A stretch of 40,856 nucleotides of DNA from a virus, in IMG/VR virus record IMGVR_UViG_3300009034_000103, positions 1-40,856 of that record; one strand, given 5' to 3'. Within the stretch, counting starts at the first letter, position 1. Each line of letters begins with the position of its first letter. Under the pieces are notes generated by a model. It was not told the DNA's origin. It was given only the letters and a program-made list of their open reading frames with translations, and did not search any database. The position numbers and the translations under genes are program-made. Positions 8,089-22,427 of the stretch are shown here, piece by piece.

Positions 8089-8510
8089 TATTTTTCCTCC
8101 TCCGCCGTTTTGGCACTTTTCTTCCACTGACGTTTTTCAAACGCTGTTTTGGGTGGTCCTCTAAAAGCCTTACGTGATATCTTGATTTCTCTACGACCAC
8201 TTTGGTGTTTTCGTCTTGTTATTCGACGGCCTGGCTTTGGCGGTGGTGGAAGCCATTTCTGCCTTTCTTGTTCCGCTCGTTTCTCCAGTTCGGTTTTTAA
8301 TGGGAACCCAATAGGAACTAAATCGCCTTTTTTGTAGTTTTTACCCGCTATCCCGATGACTATTGGTTTTTTAACTAACAATGGTTTATCGACGTCTTTA
8401 ATCACAATGGGAATCCCTAAAACTTCTTCGGGATCTTTAACAACGGCGGAAGGCAGATCCTTCCCAGCCAGTTGTCGAAGCCAACGTTTGAAGGTTTCCC
8501 ACTTACTCAT
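8088..8510 (-). CDS. Hypothetical basic protein with disordered C-terminus
   Basis: It has 140 residues. An N-terminal amphipathic helix and a Val/Ile-rich middle containing the repeated motif PIVIxxV/G are followed, from about residue 88, by PPPPKP and a strongly Arg/Lys-rich tail. The tail suggests nucleic-acid binding. The PIVI motif is often seen in nucleoprotein-like or tail-anchored beta domains, but no family is assigned. Confidence 0.65.
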   Translation of the reverse strand: MSKWETFKRWLRQLAGKDLPSAVVKDPEEVLGIPIVIKDVDKPLLVKKPIVIGIAGKNYKKGDLVPIGFPLKTELEKRAEQERQKWLPPPPKPGRRITRRKHQSGRREIKISRKAFRGPPKTAFEKRQWKKSAKTAEEEK

Positions 8511-8521
8511 TTTATCACGGC

Positions 8522-8719
8522 TTAAAGTACACCTTTTTCTTTTGCGGTAACAAGAATATCAATTGCTGCCAAGATACTAACTTTTTCTTTTTGAAGTTTA
8601 AGAAGGCGGTTTTGTGCCTTTACTTTGCCTTCTGAACATCGTTTAATGTCTTCGTTCGTAATTTGAATCCCTTCATCGATGTATTTGAGTTGATCTTTCA
8701 GACGTGTTATGGCTGTTAT
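8522..8719 (-). CDS. Coiled-coil protein with a probable ATA start
   Basis: An open frame of 65 codons ends at TAA 8522-8524. It encodes a heptad-rich helix (TRLKDQLKYIDEG, then ...KAQNRLLKLQKEKVSIL). It has no ATG, GTG or TTG near the 5-prime end. A perfect GGAGG signal sits 7 bp before ATA 8719, which overlaps the previous gene's TAA. Gene-like composition and the filled gap between neighbours support it. The start codon is an inference; a second ATA occurs three codons in. Confidence 0.55.
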   Translation of the reverse strand: MTAITRLKDQLKYIDEGIQITNEDIKRCSEGKVKAQNRLLKLQKEKVSILAAIDILVTAKEKGVL

Positions 8720-9027
8720 TTTAATCCCTCCTTGTGAACCCTAAAATGGCTTTGCCGTAGGTTCTCGTCGTCTCTTATCCAAACACCGCCAAATTCTCTG
8801 AACACATTAACAACACGAGTCCAGCCTTTCCCCCCGCCAACCCACGCAATACGAATCCTTATTGTATCCGTGTCTTCCTCAACAGACAAGATGAGTTTTC
8901 GGATGTCAGGCGGAAGTTTCGCCATAAGCCGTTTTCGCCATGCGGCATTCAATCCGCATTCAACTTTGACAACGTTGAATTTTAACTGGAGCGGGGCTCC
9001 ACATTCTGGGCAGTTTACTTCTGGCAT
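8716..9027 (-). CDS. Zinc-ribbon protein
   Basis: It has 103 residues from ATG 9027, preceded by GTGAG; earlier in-frame starts would overlap the upstream gene deeply. A CPECG knuckle lies at residues 6-10 and a lone Cys near 24 follows. The remainder is alpha/beta with IRIRIAWVGGG and a Trp-rich end. A nucleic-acid-binding role is inferred only from the zinc knuckle. Confidence 0.65.
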   Translation of the reverse strand: MPEVNCPECGAPLQLKFNVVKVECGLNAAWRKRLMAKLPPDIRKLILSVEEDTDTIRIRIAWVGGGKGWTRVVNVFREFGGVWIRDDENLRQSHFRVHKEGLK

Positions 9028-9032
9028 GTTTC

Positions 9033-9326
9033 TCACACATTTATCAAAGCATCGTAATCCAAGTTTAACATGCTCGCCATTTTTTGGAATGTTCCCAGCC
9101 ACTTTCTGCCATCATCGGTTATTATGTGATTTTTCCCGTCGATTGTTATCAGTCCACCCACTTGTAATTGTCGAACTATTTCTTTGGCTTTGGCACAATT
9201 CAAGTTCGCTTTATACATGATTCTTGTGATTTTTGCGTGTCGTGTAAACCTAGGATTTGTTGCGGGTTTGACTTTAATTAGTACGTCCAAAACAGCAGCA
9301 TACATTTCGACGTTTCCTCTCCTCAT
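9033..9326 (-). CDS. Winged-helix transcription regulator (HTH_45-like)
   Basis: It has 97 residues from ATG 9326, behind GGAAGTGA. The order is helix (VEMYAAVLDVLI), helix (TRIMYKANLN), recognition helix (AKAKEIVRQLQVGGLI) and wing (HIITDDGRKWL). This is the form of the small winged-helix regulators abundant in Thermoproteota and other archaea (PF14947-like). It probably controls viral or host promoters as a dimer. Confidence 0.75.
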   Translation of the reverse strand: MRRGNVEMYAAVLDVLIKVKPATNPRFTRHAKITRIMYKANLNCAKAKEIVRQLQVGGLITIDGKNHIITDDGRKWLGTFQKMASMLNLDYDALINV

Positions 9327-9340
9327 CATATTCACTTCCA

Positions 9341-9451
9341 TCAATAATAGGTTTTTAGATATTCCTTTACCTCCGCACGAAGTCGTGGAAAATTATCCAA
9401 CACGATTTTAACGACTCTAAGCCTTACTGCCGAATCTACGTTTGGTTCTAT
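9341..9451 (-). CDS. Tiny helical protein with a probable ATA start
   Basis: An open frame begins behind a perfect GGAGGTG. With a 6-bp spacing the start is ATA 9451; the only alternative, GTG 9460, lies inside the signal itself. The 36-residue product reads EPNVDSAVRLRVVKIVLDN and on to KTYY, an amphipathic helix pair. It ends in TGA 9341-9343, overlapping the TTG upstream of the winged-helix gene, so it seems to lead that operon. Confidence 0.5.
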   Translation of the reverse strand: MEPNVDSAVRLRVVKIVLDNFPRLRAEVKEYLKTYY

Positions 9452-9478
9452 CTGTTCCACCTCCAAAGATTATTGAAT

Positions 9479-9487
9479 AAAAAAAAA
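9479..9487 (-). terminator. T9 terminator
   Basis: Nine A residues on the + strand give TTTTTTTTT on the transcribed strand just after the stop at 9492, preceded by CCCC. Archaeal RNA polymerase stops at such tracts. It separates the PolB-side operon from the integrase-side operon. Confidence 0.6.
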
Positions 9488-9491
9488 GGGG

Positions 9492-10175
9492 TTAAGAAGT
9501 TGTCTTAGTAGTTGCTTTCTTTGTTTTCTTAGTTTTCTTCGGCTTTGGTGTTGCCTTTGGTTTCTTCATTCCTGGCAGTCCATAAACATAAGCTCTCTTG
9601 CGATTGGGATTGTCGGCGATGACGACTTGGTTCTTTTCTGCCAGTACACGCATTAAACGTCTGGCTGTACCTCTGAGAGGCCAATCAAAATGATCTCGCA
9701 TTTCAACGGATGTTACATATCGTCCTTGTTTTTTCATGTAAGCCAAGACTTTATCGATTTGAATGTCAACTTTGGTTATTCGTATAATGTTTGGATCTGG
9801 GACTCTGCTATCAATTGTTGGTGTTTCTGCCGTTTCTGATGTTTCGGCAACAGGAAGGACTTCTGATACTGGTGCAACTTCTTCTGAACTAATTTCTTGC
9901 GTTTCTTTTTCTGCTGACATTTCTATCAACAAATTAGACTCGGATGTCGCCGAATTTAAACCTTTCTCTTTAAGCATATTCTGGGCACATATTATTCTGT
10001 TTCCATGTTTCTTGGTGAAGTACGTCCTAATTTTTTTGTTGATTCTCACGATTTTCTTTTCGTTTTTAACTGCGGGTCCTTCTCCCTTCCGTATTGGTTC
10101 GTGGCAGACACTACAAACATGACGTCCGCCCGCTTGTGTACTTTCAAGGTGGGCTAATTCTTTTGGATGTGGCAA
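9492..10175 (-). CDS. Zinc knuckle plus winged-helix DNA-binding protein
   Basis: It has 227 residues with a TTG start. The N-terminal CSVCHEPIRKGEG..HGNRIIC forms a zinc site (about residues 21-63). Residues 75-130 are acidic and Ser/Thr-rich linker. Residues 135-200 form a winged helix (DKVLAYMKKQ, VEMRDHFDW, ARRLMRVLAEK). The last 25 residues are Lys/Thr/Pro repeats. Such a layout suits a transcription or replication accessory factor that coats or bridges DNA. The gene ends at a T9 terminator. Confidence 0.72.
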   Translation of the reverse strand: MPHPKELAHLESTQAGGRHVCSVCHEPIRKGEGPAVKNEKKIVRINKKIRTYFTKKHGNRIICAQNMLKEKGLNSATSESNLLIEMSAEKETQEISSEEVAPVSEVLPVAETSETAETPTIDSRVPDPNIIRITKVDIQIDKVLAYMKKQGRYVTSVEMRDHFDWPLRGTARRLMRVLAEKNQVVIADNPNRKRAYVYGLPGMKKPKATPKPKKTKKTKKATTKTTS

Positions 10176-10755: not shown

Positions 10756-13260
10756 TTAAAGGTTTCCCAAAAGAAAGAGTTTTACTTGTGTGAACTTTCT
10801 GTTATCACTTTTCTCAGCCCTATCCAAGACCAAATCCAGCCGATCCAAAATCGGGATAACTTGTTTCAGCCAATAGTAATCGTAGCCCGTCTGTTCGATT
10901 GTTGGAATGTCCCCCTCAATAACGGGCTCCACTTCCATCTGTCGTGATTTAAGACGTTTCCCTCTCTTTGAAAGTTTACGTTTGTACGTCGCAACGACAT
11001 AACTAATTTCTCGAGGGTTTACTGCCTTACCGTATTCAACTGCCTTTATTGCGGCAGATACGTGTGGTGGTGGACGGTGTCCTTTCTTCACGGCTTCATA
11101 TTCGTTTAATGGACGAGTGATGCCTTTGGTGAAAAGAAGTTCGGTTAAAACGTTCAGTTCGCCAGCATAAAGTTTCTGTTTAAGTTCCGCAAGAAACGGC
11201 TTTAATTCCTCCATTATTTGCGAACGTTCTTTCCCTTCCAATATTAAGTCAAAGCATTTTTTCTGAACAGTTTTTGCCAAGCCCGTCCAGTCTCGACGTT
11301 TAAGTTCGAATCCGACGATCATAATGTAGTCACACCAGCGTTTCTCCCAGATGCAGTGATTAACGTATTTCTTCTTAACGCCCTTCCCAGTTCGGCGAGT
11401 TTTAGCATCACCAGGACTCAAATAAAACAAATCGCAAATGAAGTCTGTTTCAATGTCGATATCAATTGAAACGCCGTAACGTTCCAGTCCAAATCGTCGA
11501 ATGTTGATGTTAAGTTTTTTCGCCAGTTCTTGAGCATAAGCCAGGACTTTCTCCAAATCCTCTTTGTCATAATCTTCCATGTTTTCTTGGAATGGAATGT
11601 CAACAGGCAAATCTATGAACACGCTGTCCGTGTCTCCATAAATGACTTTTAGCCCCAGTTCATTTTCTGCATATCGTTTAGTTTCGCGGATACATTCCCG
11701 TCCAGAAGTTGTAACTGCTTCCGCAACATCCTTATTGAAAAAGCGACAGATGAGGCTGCCCATAACACCGATAACAGCGCAATACAGAGTTTTGGCTACT
11801 CTCCGCCTAGTGTATGCTCGATATTTTTCGAATGTACCTGGCTTGGCTTTGTTGTACAAAACGTCGAGATCTTCTTTCCATTTCCCAATAACATCGAGAA
11901 CTTTTACAAGGATGGAACGTTGTTTACTGGTGAATCGTGATGTTGCTGTTTCTATGTCGCCTTCTGGGTCAACTGTGTCTATCCCAATGTTAAGTGCTCG
12001 CATGGTGCTTGGATACAAACTTTTGAAGTCGAAACATGCCGTCCATTTATGTGTTCCTGGACTAGGTTTTAACACAGCTCCTCCACTATGTCCTCCGCCC
12101 GTTCCCCCTCGCTCCTTAATTTCTTTTCTTGTCATAAATGAAATAGGTTTCGACGGCAATACTATTCTAGGCTTATTTTGTAACGCCATTCGCAATCCGA
12201 GTATGTCGATGGCGTAATTATTGCTTACGGTGTCTGAGGCAGGGACGTTCAAGTAAACGCTCATATCGAGATGCCCACTGGACAAGTAAAGTTTTTGATC
12301 AATTTGGAGAATTTTAACGCTGTCTTCCACATTATACTTTTTTAATGTTGGGTCTCCATTATCTAAGTATTTTTCGAACCAATCCCAGATGAGTTTAATA
12401 TCTTCCTTCGCACCGTAACTTGCCATAGGAATTTCTAATTTGCGACATGCCTCTTTCAAGCTTACATATCTCGTGCTTCCTCGGGTACTGGCTAGCCGAC
12501 TATAATAACTGAAAGAAGACATTAAGTCTATCGATGGAATGCGGAACTTATTGTAGTTTGGAAAGCCTATTCGTTTTGCCCGTCCATATGGATATTTAAC
12601 GTCATAATTTGTCCATGAGCACACAATGGAATATTTATCGATTTGTTTGCCGTACCATCTGAACAGTTCCATTTCATCTTTAAAACATGCCCACTCAATT
12701 TCGCCTTTTTCGTTGACAAGTGCGACACTTAACATTCGGAATGGTGGGTTAGTAACGTCCAATATACCCGATCTTTCTCGAGGGTCTGTTTCTATATCCA
12801 CATAGGCAATTTTCTGTTTCTTGTAAACTTGCAAGTTCATGTCAATAATAACTCGTTTGCCTGGCTTAACGTCTGCTTCGAGAAGTTTAATGCCCGCCCG
12901 ATTGGAAGTATAATATCCCCCACGTTCTGTGCCGAACCAAAGATAGTTGCGAAGATTGTTAATGGCATAAGGCATATATGTCGCGATTTTTGTAACAGGA
13001 CGTTTATCGCAACTGATACATTCGTCTGGATTCATTTCGGTTATTTTGTGTTCTAAACGAAGTTCTTCACATGCCTCCCGAACTTTCTCAGTATCTTCTG
13101 CGTAACAAAAACAATAATTCCAGAATGGCATGGGCTTAAACAAAACAACTTTATTTCGATTTTGATCAAATTTTGTTACGACAAGTTTTGGCTCGTTGTT
13201 AATTGTCGTAACGGTTACGTCAAGAACTTTCTCGTTGTATTGAAGTTTTAACTCCGCTGA
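10756..13260 (-). CDS. polB: Family B DNA polymerase with exonuclease domain
   Basis: It has about 834 residues from TTG 13260 (a GGAGGG lies upstream; longer starts run deep into the glycosylase gene). Exonuclease: YVDIETD near 150, a degenerate Exo II around TNYDVKYPYG, and YNVED as Exo III. Polymerase: a GGHSGGAV box, motif A DFKSLYPS near 410, motif B KTLYCAVIGVMG near 485 and motif C YGDTDSVF near 540. Motif B lacks the usual Asn-Ser-x-Tyr-Gly; the tyrosine is Ile. No terminal-protein insertions were recognised, so priming by the PrimPol at 16727 is likely. It replicates the viral genome. Confidence 0.93.
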   Translation of the reverse strand, partial: SAELKLQYNEKVLDVTVTTINNEPKLVVTKFDQNRNKVVLFKPMPFWNYCFCYAEDTEKVREACEELRLEHKITEMNPDECISCDKRPVTKIATYMPYAINNLRNYLWFGTERGGYYTSNRAGIKLLEADVKPGKRVIIDMNLQVYKKQKIAYVDIETDPRERSGILDVTNPPFRMLSVALVNEKGEIEWACFKDEMELFRWYGKQIDKYSIVCSWTNYDVKYPYGRAKRIGFPNYNKFRIPSIDLMSSFSYYSRLASTRGSTRYVSLKEACRKLEIPMASYGAKEDIKLIWDWFEKYLDNGDPTLKKYNVEDSVKILQIDQKLYLSSGHLDMSVYLNVPASDTVSNNYAIDILGLRMALQNKPRIVLPSKPISFMTRKEIKERGGTGGGHSGGAVLKPSPGTHKWTACFDFKSLYPSTMRALNIGIDTVDPEGDIETATSRFTSKQRSILVKVLDVIGKWKEDLDVLYNKAKPGTFEKYRAYTRRRVAKTLYCAVIGVMGSLICRFFNKDVAEAVTTSGRECIRETKRYAENELGLKVIYGDTDSVFIDLPVDIPFQENMEDYDKEDLEKVLAYAQELAKKLNINIRRFGLERYGVSIDIDIETDFICDLFYLSPGDAKTRRTGKGVKKKYVNHCIWEKRWCDYIMIVGFELKRRDWTGLAKTVQKKCFDLILEGKERSQIMEELKPFLAELKQKLYAGELNVLTELLFTKGITRPLNEYEAVKKGHRPPPHVSAAIKAVEYGKAVNPREISYVVATYKRKLSKRGKRLKSRQMEVEPVIEGDIPTIEQTGYDYYWLKQVIPILDRLDLVLDRAEKSDNRKFTQVKLFLLGNL

Positions 13261-13807
13261 CAAGTTTGAGATAACCCTCCAATGGCATGTTTCCATAAAC
13301 AACAACCATAGGATGTGGAAGACCATAAACAGATTCAATAGCGAACCAATTTGTTCTTGTTATAGTTATTGTTGCCTTCCATTTTTCTCCAGTTAATGGA
13401 CGTCGGTTTGTTGTTAATGAATCAACTGCCGTACGTCCAAGACAAATAACGATTTCTGGTTTTATTATATCAAGTTCGCGAAGTAAGAATTGCTGGCATT
13501 TATTTCTTGAACCAACGGCAACATCTGGAATAGCGCATTTCACAACATTGGTTACCCAAATCTCATCTTCCATTACTCCCAGCTCTTTGAGTAACGCTTC
13601 GAACACTGGGCGGGATTTACCTTTTTCACCGAATGGTGTCCCTTCACCTTTACAACGTACTGAAGGCGCTTCTCCAATAATGGCCATTTCCGCGTTCATG
13701 TTGCCTGAGCCAAACACTACTCGTTTTGGCTTTTTCTTAAAACATAGTCGACAGCCTTCGATGGTGTTTTCTAGAAGTGTTAATTTCATCTGTTTTATCG
13801 CTGTCAT
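13220..13807 (-). CDS. udg: Uracil-DNA glycosylase, type 4/5-like with Fe-S cluster
   Basis: It has 195 residues from ATG 13807, which overlaps the previous TGA (ATGA). Cys19, Cys22, Cys91 and Cys104 fit the 4Fe-4S ligands of type 4/5 enzymes. GEAP at 45-48 is motif 1 and LPHP (His165) is the second active-site loop. It excises uracil from deaminated DNA. Its place next to PolB and the cytosine-modifying enzymes suggests protection against deaminated or misincorporated bases. Its last 41 bp overlap the polymerase start. Confidence 0.85.
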   Translation of the reverse strand: MTAIKQMKLTLLENTIEGCRLCFKKKPKRVVFGSGNMNAEMAIIGEAPSVRCKGEGTPFGEKGKSRPVFEALLKELGVMEDEIWVTNVVKCAIPDVAVGSRNKCQQFLLRELDIIKPEIVICLGRTAVDSLTTNRRPLTGEKWKATITITRTNWFAIESVYGLPHPMVVVYGNMPLEGYLKLVSGVKTSIQRESS

Positions 13808-14067
13808 ACGTCCACTTCCCTTTTTATTTCGAAACAGTAATCCCAGTCTCCTCGTGTCCAGAAGAAAAAGACGTAACAATGTGATTTTATTCCGAACAAT
13901 AACCCTCTTTCGCATAACTTGGTATAAGTTATAAATTCGGTTATATCATCAAATTTGATCCAGCTTTTATGGGAAATATGTCGTTGAACCCAGATAACTG
14001 TAAACTCCTTGCAGATGTACGCTATATCTGGATTCAGTTTTTTTGGCTTTGACCAAGGCAATTTCAT
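13804..14067 (-). CDS. Hypothetical protein
   Basis: It has 87 residues from ATG 14067, which overlaps the preceding TGA (ATGA); an ATG at 14085 is also in frame. It has a basic Pro/Lys N-terminus, then aromatic-rich strands (YVFFFWTRGDWDYCFEI). No family is recognised. It is locked into the modification/replication operon by 4-bp overlaps on both sides. Confidence 0.65.
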   Translation of the reverse strand: MKLPWSKPKKLNPDIAYICKEFTVIWVQRHISHKSWIKFDDITEFITYTKLCERGLLFGIKSHCYVFFFWTRGDWDYCFEIKREVDV

Positions 14068-14213
14068 TTTTGGAACGACTTCCATGTAAATTTTTTGCAG
14101 TCACATAACCGACAAGCACCATGCCCACTAATGGCTATGTCTCTTTTATCGATTCTGTGTTTTTCTAGTCCATGTTCGTTTTTACTGTGTCCACATCTAC
14201 AAATTTCTTTCAT
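14064..14213 (-). CDS. 49-residue zinc protein (CxCG..H / CxxCxC)
   Basis: It reads MKEICRCGHSKNEHG, then GACRLCDCKKF near the end. The pattern CxCGHxxxxH with a later CxxCxC is a recurrent mini zinc fold in archaea and their viruses. ATG 14213 overlaps the upstream TGA and its own TGA overlaps the next ATG, so coupling is complete. Its function is unknown; DNA binding within the modification operon is conceivable. Confidence 0.7.
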   Translation of the reverse strand: MKEICRCGHSKNEHGLEKHRIDKRDIAISGHGACRLCDCKKFTWKSFQK

Positions 14214-15430
14214 TTGAGAAACACTTCCCACCAGAGGCATAAGAGGCTTAACAAATATTTGATGGATGGACTTAACTTAAAAAAGTTTACGTCGTTAAAC
14301 AAGCCCATTTCGCGGAGAATACTTGGCTTTAAAAACTTGTCAACGACAAAACCCATATCTCTAAAACACATTGGCTTTTTGGGTGCTAGGCATCGATGCA
14401 TTCCAGCGTACTCTCCACATAAATATCGAAGATAACGTTTAGGATTCTGTCCACTTAAATCGTGCAAGCCAAGTTGCATAATTGATTCTTGTAACAAGTT
14501 GATATCAGCGAACGGCAGAAGGACTTCCTGATCCTTTCTATGAAACGCGCAATATCGATGACGATTGCCATAGGTGTTTATGCTTCGAATGTCCCAGAAA
14601 ATCATGTTGTACGGTGGCTCTCCAGTACGGACCCAGAACGGAAAATCGTTTACAGAAATCTTTAAATTCTTAAAAAGTTTTGTCATCTCTTTAAGATCTT
14701 GTTTTATGAGAGTCATCCAATACAAATGTCCCGCTTTTAATGCCCGAAGTTCGCTTCCCATACTTGGTCCGAAAATTGTATCCGCATAATCGCCAACAAC
14801 TAGTACATCTTCCGCATTTTTACATAAAAAGTAAGTTGGTATCGTTCCACCTCGATCATGTGGGGTCCCCAATTTTTCAATTATTATTGGTAGTTCGTGG
14901 AGGATTATTTCTCGGGATAATCGAACTTGTCTGAACGGCACGTCTAACTGCTCGGCAATTAACTTAGCTCCTACACTTTCATCATATTTCTCAAACGATA
15001 CGTTTACCGCTTCAACATTCAGTTCAAGACTTTTACATTTAGCCAGGAGGTAAGTGCTATCTACTCCACCGCTGAAGCCAACAGATACTTTCTTAGATCC
15101 GACTTTTTTTAAAATTTCGCCGATGTTAATATCGAAGACTCTTGTGTCCACCGAATTTGGATCGGCTATTGCTGATCGTTGAAGCATGTCCCATTCCCAC
15201 GCTTCCATTGGAAACTCCATGATAACACCACCGACGGGTGTTTCTCCAAAAGGATTGTATTTTGTTGCGATAAACCATTGAATGGCTTTGTCATCTAGTT
15301 CTATTAGTTCTTGAGGGGAGGCATTAAGTAAGTCGCCGAAATAAGTGTAATATTTTTTCAAACGTTCATATCGCTGGATTGTTGAAGTAAACCGTTGAGG
15401 GCGGGCAGTTACGCTGTACATTTTTCTCAT
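14210..15430 (-). CDS. Asparagine-synthetase-like ATP pyrophosphatase
   Basis: It has 406 residues. SGGVDST at 120-126 is the PP-loop that binds ATP pyrophosphate. GDYADTIFGP around 213-221 matches the second AsnB signature (GxGADELFGG-like). There is no N-terminal glutaminase (Ntn) domain: residues 1-110 are a different region and the PP-loop domain follows. Such domains adenylate a carboxyl or carbonyl group before amide or thio transfer. Next to a dCMP-hydroxymethylase-like enzyme, a role in decorating a modified base is the favoured inference; cell-wall or amino-acid metabolism is the alternative. Confidence 0.8.
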   Translation of the reverse strand: MRKMYSVTARPQRFTSTIQRYERLKKYYTYFGDLLNASPQELIELDDKAIQWFIATKYNPFGETPVGGVIMEFPMEAWEWDMLQRSAIADPNSVDTRVFDINIGEILKKVGSKKVSVGFSGGVDSTYLLAKCKSLELNVEAVNVSFEKYDESVGAKLIAEQLDVPFRQVRLSREIILHELPIIIEKLGTPHDRGGTIPTYFLCKNAEDVLVVGDYADTIFGPSMGSELRALKAGHLYWMTLIKQDLKEMTKLFKNLKISVNDFPFWVRTGEPPYNMIFWDIRSINTYGNRHRYCAFHRKDQEVLLPFADINLLQESIMQLGLHDLSGQNPKRYLRYLCGEYAGMHRCLAPKKPMCFRDMGFVVDKFLKPSILREMGLFNDVNFFKLSPSIKYLLSLLCLWWEVFLK

Positions 15431-15984
15431 CCAATGTAGTGCGTTTCTGTTTTTCCTGTTTTTCTCTTTTTCGCGGTGACTGTGAACAAGTCGTCCATGT
15501 AAATATGGGCAGATCCGATCATATGGACAAGAAATCCTAGTTTAGCCTTTACCGCCTTTGCAACTTTTTTCTGGAACCCAGCAAATACTGCCATATCTGA
15601 AGGCAAAAGATTAATTACGTCTGAACTTCGGCTAAACACGCACATCTCCAGTTTTTTGTCTCTTAATAAGAACTGCATAGAAACGGTGCACGGAACATGT
15701 CCTTTCTTTCGACAATCCTCGTGGTCCCATACAGATGCGACTGCCTGCCTTGTATTCGGATCTTTTGTAAGGCGTTTGATAATGGCTGGAAATTGATGTC
15801 TTAGAAATTCGCCATAAGTTTTAGCCTCATTTTGCATCGGCGGTAATACTGTGGTATCTACCACTGAATATGTAAGACCGCAAACTTCCAGTACCTTTCG
15901 TCCACTAATTATGCGAACGTTGCCGTTTTGAAGTACCATTAGAAGAACTTGCGCATATGCGTCGGCTAATGTAAGAACGGGCAT
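15427..15984 (-). CDS. dCMP hydroxymethylase-like (thymidylate synthase superfamily)
   Basis: It has 185 residues from ATG 15984 (overlaps the upstream TAA). Catalytic Cys99 lies in VPCTVSMQF, Arg119/Ser120 in SRSSD bind phosphate, and HIY at 160-162 is the last superfamily motif. The position that is Asn177 in E. coli thymidylate synthase is Asp130 here (LPSDMA), as in T4 dCMP hydroxymethylase, so dCMP rather than dUMP is the predicted substrate. The product would be 5-hydroxymethyl-dCMP (or 5-methyl-dCMP). It is shorter than the usual 250-290 residues, mainly at the ends. Confidence 0.82.
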   Translation of the reverse strand: MPVLTLADAYAQVLLMVLQNGNVRIISGRKVLEVCGLTYSVVDTTVLPPMQNEAKTYGEFLRHQFPAIIKRLTKDPNTRQAVASVWDHEDCRKKGHVPCTVSMQFLLRDKKLEMCVFSRSSDVINLLPSDMAVFAGFQKKVAKAVKAKLGFLVHMIGSAHIYMDDLFTVTAKKRKTGKTETHYIG

Positions 15985-16580
15985 TAATACGTCACCTCTG
16001 TGCCGTCGTGTTGCCATTCCCAGAATATGAGGTTCTTTTTCTTCCAGCCCACTTTGGTCATATAGTAACTCCATTCATAAATTCGTTTCAACGGGAAATC
16101 CTCAAGCGTTTTTATAATTTCTTGGATAATGGGGTTATCTGCTTGTCTAGTGTTACTGAAAACCGACATCTCAACTTTTCCTTCAACCATAACTCGCCGA
16201 AGCGTTCCAGGGCCGAAAGCTAAATCAAATGCGTAAGAAGTTGGGGACTTCTTCCAACATGAGCCACATACTAAAGTTTCGCCAGGATCGATGCCAACAG
16301 CAACACTTACATGATATCCTTTTGCTAATAATTCTGGTACCCGAAGTAAAGCCTCTTCTCTTGTGATATTCGGAAGATGTGGAGATATGTCCCATTTTCG
16401 GTGAGTAAGCCAAGTCCGCACAGATATCCGTGAATTAGCCGCTAAAAGCACTTTCGCTTTATCTGTTATGATGGGTGGCTTTGGTTTGAGAACAACAAAG
16501 TCCGAGGTGTTTAGTCCAGCTCTTCGCAAATCGTCCATCCGCTCTAATTTCGTCCTTCCTTTAAGTTTAACGATTGGCAT
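15984..16580 (-). CDS. Unknown protein heading the modification operon
   Basis: It has 198 residues. ATG 16580 lies about 34 bp from the TATTTAAA box, so the transcript leader is only a few bases. It has an SVRTW motif, a GYHVSVAVGIDPGE strand-turn, a CGSCW pair and a C-terminal IYEWSYYMTKVGW..IFWEW. The order of these motifs recalls part of an ATP-grasp fold, but the nucleotide-binding residues are not clear, so I leave it unnamed. First position before the dCMP-hydroxymethylase-like and AsnB-like genes links it to the same pathway. Confidence 0.65.
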   Translation of the reverse strand: MPIVKLKGRTKLERMDDLRRAGLNTSDFVVLKPKPPIITDKAKVLLAANSRISVRTWLTHRKWDISPHLPNITREEALLRVPELLAKGYHVSVAVGIDPGETLVCGSCWKKSPTSYAFDLAFGPGTLRRVMVEGKVEMSVFSNTRQADNPIIQEIIKTLEDFPLKRIYEWSYYMTKVGWKKKNLIFWEWQHDGTEVTY

Positions 16581-16610
16581 TTTAAACAAGATTCTAGGGG
16601 AAGTCGTGTG

Positions 16611-16697
16611 TATTTAAACGTTAATGGATATAGTCCCAATGTAACATTGATCCGTTGGGACTATGTTACTTTTTCCATTAATGTTTAAATATAGTCC
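16611..16697. promoter_or_regulatory. Divergent promoter and operator region I
   Basis: Nested inverted repeats: TATTTAAACGTTAATGG (16611-16627) pairs with 16675-16691 at 16 of 17 positions, and ATAGTCCCAA (16630-16639) pairs exactly with TTGGGACTAT (16655-16664). The outer arms contain the outward-facing TATA boxes (TTTAAA) for the PolB/modification operon on the left and the PrimPol operon on the right. The inner sites are a likely operator. The layout recurs at 30201-30286. Confidence 0.8.
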
Positions 16698-16726
16698 ATT
16701 GCCTTCTGATTCTTAGTGAAAAGTTA

Positions 16727-21570: not shown

Positions 21571-22095
21571 ATGTCTCCACCAATACGAATTGGAATAGTT
21601 GGGAAAATGGGTAGTGGTAAGTCTACCGCCGCAAAGTATCTCGAAGCAAAATATGGCTTCCATCGTCTTAGCTTCGCGATGGGTGTTAAAGAGATTGCCA
21701 AAAAATACTTTGGGATGGGAAAGAAAAATAGATGCTTACTTCAGTCCATCGGAATGAAGATGCGAGAAATTATGCCGCATGTTTGGATCGCGTACACATT
21801 CAACAACATTCACCCCCTTATTTGGAACTGTTGTGATCTCGTTATTGAAGATGTTCGTTTTGAAAATGAAGCGGCATATCTTAGACAAGAAAAATTCATA
21901 CTTCTTCGTGTTGTTCGTTCCAAAGGACGAAAGGCAGTTGGCATGGAATTTGCCGACGACAAAAGTGAAACCGAACTGGAAGGGATTTGCACGGACTACA
22001 TATTCAACAGTTTCGAGGAAGATAATGAAAAATGGAAGCGAGAACTTTACGACTACATAGATAAAATATTATTCGGACAAAGGAAGAAAAAATGA
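21571..22095 (+). CDS. Deoxynucleoside monophosphate kinase
   Basis: It has 174 residues. A P-loop GKMGSGKST lies at 11-19. GVKEIAKKYFGM, LLQSIGMKMRE and VIEDVRFENEA (a T4 gp1-like DVRFxNEA box around residues 90-100) match the phage dNMP kinase family. It converts dNMPs, including modified ones in T4-like systems, to diphosphates. Together with the dCMP-hydroxymethylase-like protein it could supply hydroxymethyl-dCTP. It follows a GGGGG-rich start region. Confidence 0.83.
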   Translation: MSPPIRIGIVGKMGSGKSTAAKYLEAKYGFHRLSFAMGVKEIAKKYFGMGKKNRCLLQSIGMKMREIMPHVWIAYTFNNIHPLIWNCCDLVIEDVRFENEAAYLRQEKFILLRVVRSKGRKAVGMEFADDKSETELEGICTDYIFNSFEEDNEKWKRELYDYIDKILFGQRKKK

Positions 22096-22427
22096 AACTG
22101 GCATACATGACTTATCCTCTTACTGGAGCACCCGAAAAATACACAAAAGAAGCCAAAGCCTTGGCTCTTAAAATTTTAAAAGCCCGTCCAGATATAGTTA
22201 TTGTTTTTGCGCATGTTACTGTTGATTCGTGGATACCACCCAAACTTATGAGACGACGGATATTGGCAGATATCGAATTAATTCATCGTAGTGACTTTAT
22301 TATTGAAGGTAAAGAACTAGACTACGAAGAAAGTGCTGGTGCCGTTTGGGAACATTGTATCGCAATGTTTAACAATAAACCAATTTATACTCCAGCCGAA
22401 ATTATAGAAGGAAAAGACCGTGCCTGA
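22092..22427 (+). CDS. Nucleoside 2-deoxyribosyltransferase-like (DUF4406 type)
   Basis: It has 111 residues. It starts AYMTYPLTG, with AHVTVDSW, RRRILADIELIHRSDFII and DYEESAGAVWEH following in order. The Asp of SDFII and the Glu of AVWEH fit the catalytic and binding pattern of the family, which breaks or exchanges the base-sugar bond of deoxynucleosides and modified nucleotides. The kinase stop overlaps its ATG. A role in nucleotide salvage or in removing unwanted host or modified nucleotides is inferred. Confidence 0.72.
   Translation: MKLAYMTYPLTGAPEKYTKEAKALALKILKARPDIVIVFAHVTVDSWIPPKLMRRRILADIELIHRSDFIIEGKELDYEESAGAVWEHCIAMFNNKPIYTPAEIIEGKDRA

Follow-up and report, generated by a model that had tools for sequence, protein, structure and literature searches.

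Synechococcus phage S-B43 encodes CmoY, a homologue of AsnB that has no glutaminase domain; CmoY joins glycine to 5-carboxymethylcytosine, and adenylation of the carboxyl has been proposed as its mechanism (PMC12783734). Phage phiW-14 extends a hydroxymethyl pyrimidine after replication by way of an activated intermediate (PMC5977210), and operons in which linked ligases form successive peptide-like bonds have been described (PMC4431377). In the MetaGPA study, the residues at E. coli positions 177 and 147 distinguish synthases encoded on contigs with experimentally determined cytosine modification from other synthases, and PRA-PH and dCMP deaminase co-occur with synthases on modified contigs (PMC8670742). 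For archaeal tailed viruses, a review gives 7-deazaguanine as their hypermodification (PMC8651126). Within our partial coverage of the open literature, we found neither a dCMP hydroxymethylase in an archaeal virus nor an AsnB-like enzyme paired with a synthase of the dCMP type.

Here we analyse a 40.9-kb IMG/VR virus contig (IMGVR_UViG_3300009034_000103; all 40,856 nucleotides, hereafter the window) that carries an operon with genes for an AsnB-like protein and a dCMP-type synthase-like protein. The sequence suggests that the operon is probably a variant of viral cytosine hypermodification that follows an undescribed recipe. We put the chances at about even that it is a module for modifying cytosine in step with replication of the viral DNA.

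Results

Three minus-strand genes form the head of the operon: gene A (15984-16580(-), 198 aa), a thymidylate synthase superfamily gene (15427-15984(-)) and a gene for an AsnB-like PP-loop protein (14210-15430(-), 406 aa). All three open reading frames were confirmed. Gene A meets the synthase-like gene at a TAATG junction, and the synthase-like gene overlaps the PP-loop gene through ATGA, so the coupling described in the initial annotation is real. Further ATGA overlaps continue the chain on the same strand, from the PP-loop gene to a 49-aa ORF (14064-14213), an 87-aa ORF with no assigned function (13804-14067) and a family-4 uracil-DNA glycosylase (UDG; 13220-13807; NF040953, 5e-23; PF03167). 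The UDG gene in turn overlaps the frame of a minus-strand DNA polymerase B (PolB; 10756-13338; PF00136, 5e-34), the true start of which probably lies downstream of 13338. The genes share an operon with UDG next to PolB, as had been claimed, and the chain is longer than was first described. The T4 gp1-like deoxynucleoside monophosphate kinase reported at 21571 is also present (21571-22095, plus strand; phrog_139, 4e-32).

Several other features of this region are worth recording. The 49-aa predicted ORF, translationally coupled to the PP-loop gene, is Cys/His-rich, with CRCGH...CRLCDC motifs, and would perhaps encode a zinc-binding accessory protein. Overlapping the kinase gene by four bases is a gene for a nucleoside 2-deoxyribosyltransferase-like protein (22092-22427; phrog_355, 7e-5). 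Some members of this fold, such as DNPH1 and MilB, cleave modified nucleotides, and by analogy the protein may belong to a nucleotide-modification set. The gap that separates the gene A operon from the divergently transcribed PrimPol gene (16590-16705) contains a large imperfect palindrome, in which ATAGTCCCAA / TTGGGACTAT is nested within TTAATGGA / TCCATTAA and TTTAAAC / GTTTAAA arms. TATA-like TTTAAA flanks it on both sides and the cumulative GC skew reaches its minimum nearby; the palindrome may act as a promoter/operator in both directions or as an origin. UDG and an Asp-type synthase are neighbours a second time on a phage contig (L030, 9108-10552), where a UDG-like gene directly precedes the synthase and sugar-nucleotide and glycosyltransferase-like genes lie upstream.

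The virus itself is real, since a 99.9% identical contig is present in a second metagenome; that contig spans 26729-40811 of the window and stops short of the gene cluster. The best match of the terminase large subunit (TerL) is HGTV-1 (25% identity over 84%), PolB matches mostly haloarchaeal viruses, many of Halorubrum and Haloarcula, and the UDG matches an archaeal UDG profile. Judged from these sequences the host is likely archaeal, which supports the earlier description of an archaeal virus and falls short of proving it. The protein encoded at 9492-10175 weakly resembles TFIIE-beta (PF02186, E=0.0014, below the cut-off), which is consistent with an archaeal host.

The synthase-like protein carries the signature of enzymes that act on cytosine. 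It matches PF00303 at 4e-18 and scores 150 bits, far above PF00303, against a profile of 157 relatives drawn from viral contigs, phage records and bacterial genomes; the profile was built without the query protein, and the comparison nonetheless favours it because the relatives were gathered using it as query. Its base-reading residue had been predicted to be Asp130, and alignments bear this out. The best PDB match is 1njc, which we take to be the N229D mutant of the L. casei enzyme, and an Asp lies opposite Asp130 there; Asp130 also falls in the Asp column of T4 gp42 (the T4 Asp179 position). In an alignment of 158 sequences, this column holds Asp in 151 and Asn in 7. Cys99, the nucleophile and the equivalent of T4 Cys148, is invariant across the 158. 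It is followed by Thr100 rather than His (E. coli position 147), and the Thr and Asp occur as a pair in 148 of the 157 relatives, while none of the seven Asn-type sequences has the Thr. The argument for a cytosine type is strengthened because Asp130 and Thr100 are the same two positions singled out by MetaGPA (PMC8670742). Tyr57, Arg79, Arg119, Ser120, Asp122, His160 and Tyr162 are kept as well. Descent of this protein from cytosine-type synthases is secure.

Catalysis is a different matter. The protein is only 185 aa long, and about 50 profile positions (48-97) are absent while the frame stays open. The missing segment takes in the catalytic Glu, numbered Glu60 in T4 by a count along L004, which 146 aligned relatives keep and whose E. 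coli equivalent is Glu58; the alignment leaves out relatives shorter than 200 aa, of which we saw only two ORFs, one of them where a contig ends. No separate copy of the segment, such as a split synthase would have, turned up when all six frames of the window were searched with the profile. Because this normally essential segment is missing, dCMP hydroxymethylase activity is unproven and we do not assign the name. The term 'dCMP-hydroxymethylase-like' from the initial annotation holds for the cytosine type and is undercut by the lost Glu segment, leaving an unproven candidate dCMP hydroxymethylase. The locus raises the question of how a synthase of the dCMP type might function once its catalytic glutamate is gone.

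The PP-loop protein agrees with its earlier description as an AsnB-like ATP pyrophosphatase without glutaminase. An Asn_synthase-type domain (PF00733, 7e-14) covers residues 112-313, with the motifs SGGVDS and GDYAD; the curated domain sets gave no further match. The protein starts MRKMY, without Cys2, and has no glutaminase domain match, which sets it apart from glutamine-hydrolysing AsnB. Relatives were found neither in phage records (tblastn, E up to 10) nor in plasmid records (E up to 1). Single-protein scans likewise recovered no relatives of the three proteins in viral contigs and none of the PP-loop protein in genome contigs. A search for the same cluster elsewhere, which had been suggested as a check, came back empty: PF00733 is absent from all 99 other records with synthases of the same branch, including two with gene A, so that the pair of synthase and PP-loop protein recurs in none of them, an absence that is not proof because many of these records are partial.

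None of Pfam, NCBIfam and PHROG gives a convincing match for gene A. The earlier label 'unknown' is accurate as far as domain databases go, and the protein is no orphan. Among the genes lying within 10 kb of the collected synthases, one (L170, 10599-11204; phmmer 3e-13) is a relative of gene A and overlaps the end of an Asp-type synthase. Scanning viral contigs with a two-sequence gene A alignment alone yielded a second relative (L191, 9845-10438), which was thus found without using the synthase; here too gene A overlaps an Asp-type synthase, in the same gene order as in the window. Gene A touches an Asp-type synthase in three of three known loci, in both gene orders and in viruses that are otherwise dissimilar. 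We consider this association the most solid new element of the analysis. Residues invariant across the three sequences include S-x-R-T, G-P-G-T-x-R-x-V, E-x-S-Y-Y and W-E.

In L170, a C5-cytosine methylase, PRA-PH and dCMP deaminase lie around the synthase/gene A pair; PRA-PH and dCMP deaminase are the domains that MetaGPA reports alongside synthases (PMC8670742). The methylase gene (8356-9687; PF00145, 4e-14) overlaps the Asp-type synthase gene, with gene A and the dCMP deaminase gene following, so the cluster brings two different cytosine C5 enzymes together. Marginal similarity to gene A (E=5e-6; 1 of 380 genomes) was also seen in a 240-aa chromosomal protein of Patescibacteria with no Pfam match (L223, 1144-1866); no synthase was noted in this 3.4-kb locus.

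Structural modelling at low confidence hints at an ATP-grasp fold for gene A. Folding from the single sequence was unusable (pLDDT 34.5), and an AlphaFold2 model from the three-row alignment is weak (pLDDT 57, pTM 0.50). In the PDB, ATP-grasp enzymes (D-Ala ligase, RimK, PurK, rifampin phosphotransferase) make up the overwhelming majority of Foldseek matches to this model, with probability mostly >0.9 at a TM of about 0.35, and many of the named viral matches are ATP-grasp as well. A profile comparison by hhalign against PPDK_N and D-Ala ligase sets gave a signal no higher than the synthase control. We lean slightly towards gene A being an ATP-grasp enzyme.

Discussion

We propose that dCMP receives a one-carbon unit at C5, most likely as hydroxymethyl, through the action of the synthase-like protein. 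The gp1-like kinase and a host kinase would raise the modified dCMP to the triphosphate, and PolB would incorporate it. Gene A, perhaps as an ATP-grasp enzyme, and the AsnB-like enzyme would then carry out ATP-dependent activation and extension of the 5-substituent, the added group being most plausibly an amino acid or amine. Enzymes of the AsnB type work by activating a carboxylate. The AsnB-like protein therefore most likely acts after a step that has provided a carboxyl, such as the prior joining of an amino acid, or else it adenylates an amino acid to form an ester with the hydroxymethyl. The initial annotation suggested that this enzyme could activate and amidate or otherwise extend the hydroxymethyl base. 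Extension by an AsnB-like protein has a precedent in CmoY, whose acceptor carries a carboxyl (PMC12783734); the hydroxymethyl has none, so direct amidation is doubtful and, by this analogy, unlikely. Prior attachment of an amino acid, or an aminoacyl ester, would be more plausible. In favour of such a module are Asp130 with Thr100, the TAATG and ATGA coupling, the recurrence of gene A, the PRA-PH and dCMP deaminase genes of L170, the CmoY precedent and the gp1-like kinase; against it are the missing Glu segment, the restriction of the AsnB-like family to this record among those compared (0 of 99 others), the want of a carboxyl on the hydroxymethyl group and the weak ATP-grasp model, which profile comparison did not back.

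The main rival holds that the synthase-like protein has lost one-carbon transfer and persists in reduced form to bind dCMP or modified dCMP, for example as a subunit that presents the substrate, with gene A and the AsnB-like enzyme using a nucleotide from the host or another route. We regard this as doubtful and still a serious contender. Loss of about 50 profile positions, with a Glu that 146 aligned relatives keep, speaks for it, as does the failure to find the missing part elsewhere in the window, whereas retention of Cys99, Tyr57, Arg79, Arg119, Ser120, Asp122, Asp130, His160 and Tyr162 would be odd for a dead enzyme.

A simpler end product strikes us as unlikely. The synthase-like protein would then make 5-methyl-dC or 5-hydroxymethyl-dC, and the AsnB-like protein would serve an unrelated purpose, such as modifying tRNA or metabolising small molecules. 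A thymidylate synthase with the N229D change becomes a dCMP methylase (Liu and Santi 1992, as cited in PMC8670742), and many PP-loop enzymes do act on tRNA or metabolites, LarE, MnmA, TilS and QueC being among the weaker matches of the PP-loop protein; its failure to recur in other synthase records points the same way. However, the genes overlap, and the best domain match of the PP-loop protein is Asn_synthase, the CmoY type. Very improbable, in our judgement, is an ordinary or methanogen-type thymidylate synthase that supplies dTMP. Such proteins are short, and TIGR03283, the model for the methanogen enzyme (201 positions), matches at 2e-18, about equal to the other synthase models. Yet this match reaches 66 bits against a cut-off of 175 bits, the protein does much better against PHROG 160 and against the Asp-type profile, and Asp130 with Thr100 stand in place of Asn with His.

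The preferred reading, a cytosine-modification module, can be carried further to an aminoacyl or peptide-like side chain on 5-hydroxymethylcytosine. This would be built by an ATP-grasp gene A and an AsnB-like ligase on the product of a pared-down dCMP hydroxymethylase, which may have adapted to a one-carbon donor of archaea, in an archaeal virus; taken whole, this scheme is speculative and we would not expect every part to hold. If the module is real, the operon would probably disguise viral DNA through cytosine marking, and archaeal viruses would have modified cytosine among their DNA modifications. Gene A would then represent a new family of proteins associated with cytosine-type synthases, from which enzymes that write new groups onto DNA could be drawn.

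Compared with ATP-grasp ligases (D-Ala ligase, RimK, PurK and the R2K clade), gene A is alike in the Foldseek matches of its model and differs in having no Pfam ATP-grasp match, no profile support and only about 200 aa. The synthase-like protein shares with T4 gp42 and phage Asp-type synthases its superfamily, catalytic Cys, base-reading Asp and the Thr after the Cys, and as in T4 a gp1-like kinase is encoded by the same virus; gp42 has 246 aa against 185 aa here, where the Glu60 segment is absent. Unlike in T4, no glucosyltransferase was identified among the window proteins scanned. The 5-hydroxymethylcytosine carbamoyltransferase clusters likewise pair an Asp-type synthase with an ATP-using enzyme, which in those clusters extends hydroxymethylcytosine (MetaGPA, PMC8670742). 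The window differs in its second enzymes, and no carbamoyltransferase, CmoA or C5-MTase was found in this record, which may be a fragment. The nearest characterised analogue of the PP-loop protein is CmoY. CmoY has 271 aa against 406 aa, the two align over the PP-loop region only, and its virus has CmoA and the C5-MTase CmoX, whereas the neighbour of the PP-loop protein here is a dCMP-type synthase. What they share is an AsnB-type PP-loop domain without glutaminase, encoded beside a gene for cytosine C5 modification.
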